Positions 52,828-54,208 of a stretch of 64,000 nt of DNA are shown here, piece after piece; the stretch's first letter is position 1, and every line of letters starts with the position of its first letter. Source of the DNA: Gemmobacter caeni. Its GTDB lineage: Bacteria; Pseudomonadota; Alphaproteobacteria; Rhodobacterales; Rhodobacteraceae. The notes beneath the pieces were generated by a model. It made no database searches. It was given only the letters and a program-made list of their open reading frames with translations, and had not been told where the DNA came from. Both the position numbers and the translations under genes were made by a program. The DNA lies in NCBI RefSeq assembly GCF_003054195.1, contig NZ_QBKP01000005.1, positions 1 to 64,000 of the forward strand, written 5' to 3'.

Positions 52828-53451
52828 ATGTCGAAATCCCTCCTGCCCGGCGTTCTCGCCATGGCGGCCACTGTCGTGGCTTCCAACATCCTTGTGCAAT
52901 ACCTGCTTGGCCCCTGGCTGACCTGGGGCGCACTGACCTACCCCGTTGCCTTTCTGGTGACCGACCTGACCAATCGCCTGCATGGCGCCGCTGCTGCGCG
53001 CCGCGTCGTGCTGGTGGGCTTTGTCGCTGGAATCCTGTGCTCGCTGATCGGTTCGCAGATCATGGGAGAATTCGGGCCGCTGGTTACCCTGCGTATCGCA
53101 ATCGGCTCGGGCGCTGCTTTCCTTGCCGCACAACTGACCGACATCGCTATTTTCAACCGCCTGCGCGCGGGAAGCTGGTGGCGCGCGCCGCTCGTCTCCA
53201 CGCTGTTCAGTTCCAGCCTTGATACAGCGATCTTCTTCACCACCGCCTTCTCCGCCAACCTCACCTTCATCGAGCCCGCGAACGATGTGTCCTGGGCTGG
53301 CGAAGTGCTGCCGATCCTGGGTTTCGGACCGCAAGCCCCGCTGTGGGTTTCGCTCGCCGTCGCCGACTGGATGGTCAAGCTGGCACTGGCAGCTGTTGCA
53401 CTTGTGCCATTCCGCATCATTGTCGGAAAGTTGACTCTACGTCCGGTATAA
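52828..53451 (+). CDS. yhhQ: Queuosine precursor transporter, YhhQ family
   Basis: A 207-residue integral membrane protein of the VUT/YhhQ family (preQ0/preQ1 import). It has about six helices with the conserved phrases NILVQYLLGPW, WGALTYPVAFLVTDLTNRLHG, GSGAAFLAAQLTDIAIFNRL, APLVSTLFSSSLDTAIFFT and VADWMVKLALAAVALVPFR. A weak ribosome binding site next to a foldable leader suggests regulated translation. Confidence 0.92.
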   Translation: MSKSLLPGVLAMAATVVASNILVQYLLGPWLTWGALTYPVAFLVTDLTNRLHGAAAARRVVLVGFVAGILCSLIGSQIMGEFGPLVTLRIAIGSGAAFLAAQLTDIAIFNRLRAGSWWRAPLVSTLFSSSLDTAIFFTTAFSANLTFIEPANDVSWAGEVLPILGFGPQAPLWVSLAVADWMVKLALAAVALVPFRIIVGKLTLRPV

Positions 53452-53521
53452 AACCTTTTGACAAAGCCCAGATCTGTGTCACGCTCCCTATATCGGCAAT
53501 CTTTTGAAAGGAGGTGATCCA

Positions 53522-53578
53522 GTGTCTAGAGTGATATTGGAGAGAGGTGTCGGGACAGTCAGGAGGAGCGATATTTAA
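53522..53578 (+). CDS. Possible 18-residue peptide with an extended Shine-Dalgarno
   Basis: GTG start, TAA stop, product MSRVILERGVGTVRRSDI. The GGAGG core is 7 bp upstream, the optimal spacing, within a 17-nt complement of the 16S rRNA tail. Such near-perfect complementarity by chance is very unlikely. The peptide itself matches no family I know. Confidence 0.4.
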   Translation: MSRVILERGVGTVRRSDI

Positions 53579-53648
53579 GGGCAACCCCTTGAAAATCAAT
53601 CCTATGATTGGGCTTGAAACCTAACTGGCCCATCTCCTTGGAACTCGG

Positions 53649-53677
53649 AAAGGGTCGCCGATTTAAGGCGGCCCTTT
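53649..53677 (+). terminator. Rho-independent terminator upstream of arfB
   Basis: The 11-bp stem AAAGGGTCGCC/GGCGGCCCTTT (one T-G pair) with a 7-nt loop is followed by CTCGTTTCC. It lies 110 bp upstream of arfB and ends the short transcription unit. Confidence 0.8.
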
Positions 53678-53785
53678 CTCGTTTCCGACGCCGGAATTAC
53701 CAGCGTCGGGCACCCCCCTGAATATCGTTTCGTCAGGTCGCTATTTCCCTCTTTTCCAGACGGTCAAAGCCGCTAATCTCGCGCC

Positions 53786-54208
53786 ATGCTGCGCATCACC
53801 GAGACAATCTCCATCGCCGACTGGGAGCTTTCAGAAAGCTTTTCCCGGTCCTCCGGGCCGGGCGGGCAGAATGTGAACAAGGTGGAAACTGCGGTGGAAC
53901 TGCGGTTCGAGGCAGAACGCTCGCCCCACCTGACACCTGCGGTGAAGGCGCGGCTGAAGCGCATCGCCGGGCGACGCTGGACCACGGAAGGCGCCATCGT
54001 GATCCGGGCAGAGGAAACCCGCAGTCAGGCCCGCAACCGCGAACTGGCCGAGGCGCGCCTGGTCGAAATGATCCGTCAGGCGTTGGTCGCCCCCAAGCGG
54101 CGCATCGCCACCAAGCCGACACTGGGCAGCCAGCGGCGGCGGCTGGCAGCCAAAAGCCAGCGTGGTGAAGTGAAGGCCCTGCGCGGCCGGGTGGAGGGCG
54201 AGGAATGA
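53786..54208 (+). CDS. arfB: Alternative ribosome-rescue factor ArfB (YaeJ)
   Basis: A 140-residue peptidyl-tRNA hydrolase that rescues ribosomes stalled on non-stop mRNA. The catalytic loop GPGGQNVNK has GGQ at 26-28, and the basic C-terminal tail (KRRIATKPTLGSQRRRLAAKS) is the part that threads into the mRNA channel. It overlaps the kinase-like gene downstream by 4 bases. Confidence 0.95.
   Translation: MLRITETISIADWELSESFSRSSGPGGQNVNKVETAVELRFEAERSPHLTPAVKARLKRIAGRRWTTEGAIVIRAEETRSQARNRELAEARLVEMIRQALVAPKRRIATKPTLGSQRRRLAAKSQRGEVKALRGRVEGEE

Follow-up and report, generated by a model that had tools for sequence, protein, structure and literature searches.

A structured small RNA of alphaproteobacteria and its 16S-complementary start site, a candidate reporter of initiation capacity

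Between a yhhQ-like gene and arfB of Gemmobacter caeni lies what we read, with moderate confidence, as a stand-alone gene for a structured small RNA of alphaproteobacteria, with a translation start site adapted to the 3′ tail of 16S rRNA; the RNA would capture 30S subunits and be gated by translation. Among the sequences compared, a conserved Shine-Dalgarno (SD) element, a start codon, the length of a short reading frame, a predicted fold, a terminator and clade-specific neighbours recur. The match to 16S is maximal, and start and frame length are kept while the peptide is not; the simplest reading of this combination is that ribosome loading is the function. We regard the RNA as a candidate reporter of initiation capacity.

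Layout of the locus and family membership

The window, by which we mean the whole 64,000-nt stretch of DNA analysed, carries the locus on its + strand, as it does all parts of it given below. The extended SD element GAAAGGAGGTGATCC (53506–53520) is the complement of the 16S tail, and the complementary letters read GAAAGGAGGTGATCCAG over 53506–53522. A GTG (53522–53524) opens an 18-codon ORF, (M)SRVILERGVGTVRRSDI, which closes at a TAA (53576–53578; ORF 53522–53578). Further downstream are an internal anti-SD, CATCTCCTT, at 53631–53639 and an intrinsic terminator at 53648–53681, comprising a GC-rich hairpin (53648–53678) with 12-nt arms that are 92% complementary and a T-rich tail. A sequence-only reading of the window had named the 17-nt complement, the ORF, the anti-SD and the terminator, and all of these letters lie where it placed them. 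Among the Rhodobacterales, 58 of 60 members have such a hairpin with a T-rich tail; for all groups taken together the figure is 165 of 193, compared with 44 of 195 control places.

Upstream of the element, a promoter-like element (53458–53485) consists of TTGACA at 53458–53463, 16 nt, and CACGCT at 53480–53485, the last following a TG-N. A generic consensus promoter scan missed the TTGACA box at 53458–53463. Of 60 distinct Rhodobacterales members, 46 have TTGAC, which in 45 of them lies 48–51 nt 5′ of AAAGG. From the promoter-like element, the terminator, the folding energy and the matches of two covariance models described below, we predict an RNA of about 185 nt at 53494–53681, both of its ends being estimates. 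Its predicted folding energy is −86.8 kcal/mol, against −57.8 (s.d. 4.7) for shuffled sequences (z −6.17, 0/200). No tRNA, tmRNA or Rfam gene at gathering score was found at the RNA locus. Elsewhere the window holds a serC leader (RF00517, 29048–29099 +, 70.8 bits, over gathering) and a tRNA-Pro(CGG) (1501–1577, − strand).

Allowing up to one mismatch at any position, the search pattern AAAGGAGGTGATCC-N-[AGT]TGTC had matches in 63 of the 289 class genomes and 97 of the 149 order genomes; its reversed control was absent from both sets (0 of 289 and 0 of 149). Within a sample of the phylum, 49 of 299 genomes had the motif, all 49 among the 86 rows of the same class, and it occurred in 0 of the 213 sampled genomes from other classes of the phylum (rows counted by hand). 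Contig 1 of one genome (G036) has two motif places, 805113–805132 and 2922049–2922068, one altered at the last AAAGGAGGTGATCC letter. A covariance model, R1, built from 40 Rhodobacterales sequences with the window among them, matched 141 of the 149 genomes of the order and gave no match in the other 8; the match was single in all but one genome, where the second was weak. At the window, itself one of the 40 sequences, R1 covers 53506–53652 with 134.7 bits. Of 31 loci chosen from other types, R1 also matches 9 with E<0.01.

By Rfam, the best match at the locus is RF01867, the Caulobacter sRNA CC2171, with 31.8 bits over 53498–53675 (E 3.4e-5 over 361 bases, 1.1e-4 genome-wide). The Caulobacter sRNAs were reportedly discovered by Landt et al. 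in 2008. Because the curated gathering score of RF01867, 75 bits, is not reached, the window RNA may not count as a member by the cut-off rule. The two have in common an identical 22-nt 5′ block, GAAAGGAGGUGAUCCAGUGUCU, their layout, a terminator and an end-to-end alignment, which spans model positions 1–159 of 159 including the terminator. However, most of the middle is unaligned, and the window RNA aligns essentially by its 5′ block and terminator. At 20 loci chosen from 50 fetched, RF01867 is the best Rfam match at each RNA, with E values from 2e-17 to 0.025 (19 at or below 0.0023, five above gathering). Intermediate sequences, namely these 20 relatives and the R1 matches in other types, connect the window RNA with RF01867. 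Together with the best Rfam match, they lead us to place the window RNA, as a divergent relative, in a single homologous family with RF01867.

Over 278 genomes of the class, 7 pass the RF01867 cut-off and 65 reach E≤0.01, so the cut-off misses most relatives and a better family model would be an immediate by-product of this work. When applied to 14 control genomes, the RF01867 model matched Caulobacter and Deinobacterium, one of them over the cut-off. In a wider scan for the extended SD motif, most of the matches listed (80 of at least 117 stretches) come from Alphaproteobacteria of several orders, a few have unspecific labels and two are labelled Gemmatimonadetes. The latter, both MAGs (L058, 7832–7977 +, and L089, 107–189 −), carry the extended SD, TTG starts and similar 20-codon frames, and score 10.5 and 10.9 bits with R1; either the family occurs outside the class or the bins are mixed.

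A relative is transcribed in Mesorhizobium huakuii, where, in excerpts of PMC5596092, the RF01867 locus MH_s33 has a 215-nt sequenced product and MH_s6 alone of 35 non-riboswitch candidates was not seen. Among the papers found to name CC2171, only PMC11701678 and PMC5596092 concern the RNA, judging by titles and excerpts. Searches for extended SDs with small RNAs, mostly outside subscription papers, turned up nothing about it.

Predicted fold and base pairing

Whole-group alignment with MAFFT and RNAalifold gave poor consensus folds, and the Rhodobacterales fold comes from a separate alignment, A1, in which 40 sequences out of the 60 were used. It has five helices, with 85.8% of cells paired over the 40 sequences. 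Two-sided changes occur in 16 of 40 pairs and amount to 117 cells, compared with 52.4 (s.d. 8.2) in shuffled and 27–61 in slid alignments, figures to be read with a fold derived from the alignment it is scored on, which favours paired cells, and with shuffles that ignore relatedness.

Helix 1 joins the SD core (53509–53515) to the anti-SD ATCTCCT (53632–53638), so that the SD pairing proposed by the sequence-only reading appears in the predicted fold. It is also conserved in the Rhodobacterales, with 94.2% of helix 1 cells paired over the 40 sequences, and all 60 members have a CTCC-type core within the 54-nt stretch where it is expected. Covariation between 53508–53516 and 53631–53639, the check named in the sequence-only reading, cannot be strong because the SD strand of this helix hardly varies; one-sided changes alone are seen. 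Helix 2 is a start-codon hairpin (53518–53526 with 53533–53541, loop TAGAGT; 96.4% of cells paired). Most of the covariation is held by helix 3 (53546–53553 with 53625–53631; two-sided changes in 4 of 7 pairs), helix 4 (53556–53564 with 53602–53610; 5 of 9 pairs) and helix 5, an apical hairpin with GGGCAACCC at 53572–53594 (6 of 8 pairs). The stop codon sits inside the 5′ strand of helix 5.

A further pairing, P1, may join GAGT in the helix 2 loop (53529–53532) to ACTC just before the terminator (53643–53646), making a pseudoknot if helix 1 is formed. In 19 distinct combinations, 72 positions are paired compared with 64.6 after shuffling (P 0.002), and in 59 of 60 members 242 compared with 214.8 (0/5000), both by a test chosen after inspection. 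In a general permutation test of P1, the scores of matched and permuted strands did not differ in Rhodobacterales, Sphingomonadales or Bradyrhizobium. In other clades codons 2–6 pair with the pre-terminator place, and matched strands scored better than permuted strands in three groups out of six (−12.81 versus −11.35, s.d..41; −9.95 versus −7.98, s.d..37; −10.32 versus −8.48, s.d..57).

Class-wide sequestration of the SD was tested against shuffles and found not to be general. The duplex of SD and anti-SD has a mean z of −1.88 in Rhodobacterales (n=60) and −1.95 in Bradyrhizobium. In Sphingomonadales, by contrast, the internal anti-SD does not exceed chance (mean z −0.24, n=29), and three further groups show it weakly (mean z −0.69, −0.96 and −0.92), from which it follows that closing of the SD is not class-wide. 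Seven Bradyrhizobium-type loci (L098, L108, L112, L116, L135, L157 and L162) share a frame of 14 codons (VS..KRCHLAGIAR); its TCACCTC and the GAGGTGA of the SD make a helix of 7 pairs.

Start site, reading frame and neighbourhood

The 16S 3′ end is absent from the genome's own assembly (0 matches of GGCTGGATCACCTCCTTTC at up to one mismatch), and the 16S tail exactly complementary to the element was found in a genome of the same genus (G002, the one of 11 genomes with a match). At equal base odds, simple arithmetic gives about 6e-4 occurrences of a given 17-mer per genome, both strands included. GAAAGGAGGTGATCC is unique in the genome, having one exact match, none at one mismatch and 13 at two mismatches, compared with 1 at two mismatches for its reversed pattern. 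We ruled out a chance match and a 16S fragment, given that the tail alone matches and that the RNA is present in 141 of 149 genomes of the order. The 17-nt match stressed in the sequence-only reading is there in the window; relatives keep GAAAGGAGGTG, usually with ATCC, rather than 17 nt. Some of the divergent Rhodobacterales have a changed ATCC end or lack it, so the 17-nt match as such is not required.

Within the 14 letters of AAAGGAGGTGATCC we counted 22 changes by hand, per family and change, excluding one locus (L169, 58-codon frame). Sixteen transitions leave a G-U with 16S, one (T to C) breaks the pair, and the five further changes are transversions, all of them pair-breaking. That 16 of 17 transitions preserve pairing (P 1.4e-4, binomial, null 1/2) argues for selection on pairing with 16S.

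Wobble-preserving changes of this kind also suit a ribosome sponge without a switch, in which a very long SD ties up 30S subunits or stalled initiation complexes, thereby lowering or buffering initiation, and the ORF does no more than complete the docking site. That the internal anti-SD is not general fits such a sponge as well. However, a sponge has no need of a kept frame length with a conserved stop, nor of a covarying fold, and while it is the nearest rival of the initiation-capacity reporter, we consider it unlikely.

The evidence on the frame comes from 195 distinct sequences in 147 clusters. Start codons over the clusters are GTG in 86, ATG in 56 and TTG in 5, counts that are biased because the scan behind them allowed no letter but A, G or T at the start position and listed 80 of at least 117 stretches. 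In the class, order and phylum searches, where the mismatch was free to fall anywhere, every match starts with ATG, GTG or TTG. No cluster of the 147 has a frame-0 stop before codon 14; in 143 the frame ends within 14–36 codons, and in four it ends later. Stops before codon 14 occur in 53 (frame +1) and 59 (frame +2) of 140 clusters, a comparison that excludes L050, L129, L142 and L169 (56, 59, 44 and 58 codons) and, as doubtful, L058, L089 and L167, the frame-0 count covering all 147. Three of the long-frame loci, L050, L129 (Azospirillum) and L169, have the same or nearly the same extended SD before a frame of 56–59 codons, and their products look alike and resemble small secreted proteins.

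Clade groups were sorted by peptide patterns of our own. The 60-member Rhodobacterales group, on which the duplex, P1, neighbour, TTGAC and terminator counts were made, was picked by an 18-codon rule, and the Sphingomonadales group by a limit of 20 codons; frame lengths were therefore taken from sets picked by nucleotide signature, without a length rule. In these, 60 of 62 Rhodobacterales-type members have 18 codons (the other two have 31 and 20), as have 27 of 29 Sphingomonadales-type members. In the Rhodobacterales-type set the stops stand at one column in the same 60 of 62, as TAG in 25, TAA in 18 and TGA in 17. The 30 best model-found loci, which repeat several genomes from earlier sets, have 18 codons in 30 of 30. 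Of the 20 Rhodobacterales loci that lack the exact motif, all 20 have GAAAGGAGGTG with a start codon 3–5 nt after it, and 16 have frames of 18 codons; the other frames, of 13, 13, 22 and 25 codons, count against the initiation-capacity reporter, as do the 31- and 20-codon frames above.

Another reading takes the RNA as an ordinary non-coding, base-pairing sRNA, as filed in Rfam (type 'Gene; sRNA'), with frame and start as by-products of structure. Its conserved CUCC strand could pair with the SDs of other mRNAs. Selection at the peptide level was not seen by codon-position entropy, which suits this reading, and so does the ribosome profiling of Schrader et al. 2014, where, in excerpts of PMC4117421, Caulobacter ncRNA regions are said in general not to be translated; this statement, in which CC2171 is not named, counts against both the initiation-capacity reporter and the 30S sponge. 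By-products of structure do not account well for a start restricted to ATG, GTG or TTG, a frame 0 open for 14–36 codons or longer in all clusters, three different stops in one column, or a start codon placed 3–5 nt after GAAAGGAGGTG in every divergent locus. We give this reading less credence than the sponge.

Codon-position entropies are.87/.81/.71 bits in the 62 Rhodobacterales-type and.86/.93/.60 bits in the 29 Sphingomonadales-type members (.88/.81/.72 and.86/.93/.61 in the length-ruled groups), with no excess of third-position variability in either group. Peptides from different clades have little in common beyond Met-Ser. A conserved open frame with an SD and a start codon, by which a dual-function sRNA is recognised, is present. 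Given a start and frame length that are kept and third positions without excess, translation, and not the peptide, looks selected, and the selected trait looks to be initiation together with the distance travelled by the ribosome, although codons kept for RNA pairing could alone hold part of the frame open. A micro-mRNA encoding a functional peptide, an option in the sequence-only reading that the codon positions speak against, could draw on the strong SD, the conserved length and clade-specific residues such as VGT or TWI.AS. However, third codon positions are not the most variable, conserved residues coincide with helix strands, and the clades share little of the peptide; we find this reading highly improbable.

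The locus is flanked by a yhhQ-like queuosine precursor transporter gene (52828–53451 +; TIGR00697, 86.9 bits, cut-off 50.95) and by arfB (53786–54208 +; NF006718, 184.1 bits, cut-off 100). Over 60 Rhodobacterales loci, yhhQ lies upstream in 56, arfB less than 700 nt downstream in 47, and the order yhhQ-RNA-arfB holds in 43. In three more, arfB is about 1 kb off, and in 10 it was not found, nine of these having at least 1.5 kb of downstream DNA and one being cut short. The sequence-only reading would have been refuted by a lack of conservation in relatives with the same neighbours; instead the RNA is kept in them, with yhhQ beside it at 19 of the 20 divergent Rhodobacterales loci and arfB at 18 (one partial, 1.8 kb off). 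At 135 other loci arfB appears twice, at one that is itself Rhodobacterales-type (L008) and at one from the Hyphomonadaceae (L104). In the latter (2323–2932), the RNA lies divergently beside an upstream arfB homologue of 53% identity.

We compared all reading frames of at least 100 aa within about 1.6 kb of the RNA. Neighbour protein clusters are common within clades (one upstream gene, for example, in 27 of 29 Sphingomonadales-type loci), and none is shared between clades except at two Rhodobacterales-type 'other' loci and for arfB at L104. No single downstream gene accompanies the RNA family-wide, as one would a cis leader. Apart from one locus, the arfB link is seen in Rhodobacterales only, and the function tied to arfB that had been proposed is not borne out, as other clades keep the RNA elsewhere and arfB was not found at 10 of 60 Rhodobacterales loci. 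The RNA's own terminator and its clade-specific neighbours make it a gene of its own. An arfB attenuator as a general role is ruled out by these clade-specific neighbourhoods. A leader sensing ribosome stalling for arfB, for which the gene order and the adjoining arfB at divergent loci speak, is the least probable reading of all, with a terminator between RNA and arfB, other neighbourhoods in other clades, and the one arfB outside the Rhodobacterales type lying upstream and divergent.

Readout of initiation capacity and known systems

Under the preferred reading, that of an initiation-capacity reporter, a 30S subunit would dock on GAAAGGAGGTG(ATCC) and initiate at the GTG. The ribosome would then read the short frame, whose openness and length are kept and whose peptide is not, and, in moving over 18 codons as far as the stop inside the 5′ strand of the apical hairpin, would open P1 and melt helices 2–5. 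When initiation-competent 30S subunits are few, the RNA would close. In Rhodobacterales, the closed state would have the SD paired with CATCTCC, a near-copy of the 16S tail inside the RNA, and the start codon in its hairpin; with both closed in this fold, a 30S subunit must compete with the RNA's own anti-SD. In this way the RNA would read out initiation capacity, and either its fold or the CUCC strand exposed by the ribosome would act in trans. For Gemmobacter caeni, we infer transcription of the RNA, its translation, its switching and any target.

From sequence and predicted folds, a switch is plausible in Rhodobacterales, but it is not general. We entertain only tentatively, as a possible but doubtful extension, an RNA that throughout the class senses free 30S subunits competent for initiation, held open by docking and by one ribosome passage over a frame of kept length and closed by loss of 30S, and that turns translation capacity into a trans-acting signal.

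A nameless Caulobacter sRNA proves to have relatives across alphaproteobacteria, with a 16S-matched start site and a frame kept without its peptide. In Caulobacter, an SD is present in 24.6% of CDSs (excerpts of PMC4117421). If our reading is right, the monitoring or tuning of SD-dependent initiation becomes directly testable in bacteria with many SD-less genes. If the class-wide sensor is real, a stand-alone sRNA would have translation, whatever the peptide, as one of its conserved functional components, which would be a new principle.

Three known systems invite comparison. The autoregulated, long-SD rpsU of Bacteroidota resembles the window RNA in having a start site with an unusually long anti-SD complement, tied, in the window RNA putatively, to the state of the ribosome; however, rpsU is a ribosomal protein gene, whereas the peptide of the window RNA has no conserved sequence. 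The CcsR 'cuckoo' CCUCCU-motif sRNAs of Rhodobacter are, like the window RNA, small RNAs that carry an anti-SD-like strand, but they carry the anti-SD sequence in loops and are not known to have an SD with an ORF. The dual-function rnTrpL/peTrpL of Sinorhizobium is likewise a short RNA with a short frame, which in rnTrpL is translated (excerpts of PMC10117765). As described there, rnTrpL is leaderless, serves as the trpE attenuator and has a functional peptide; the window RNA, in contrast, has a very long SD and neither a class-wide linked gene nor a sign of selection on its peptide.
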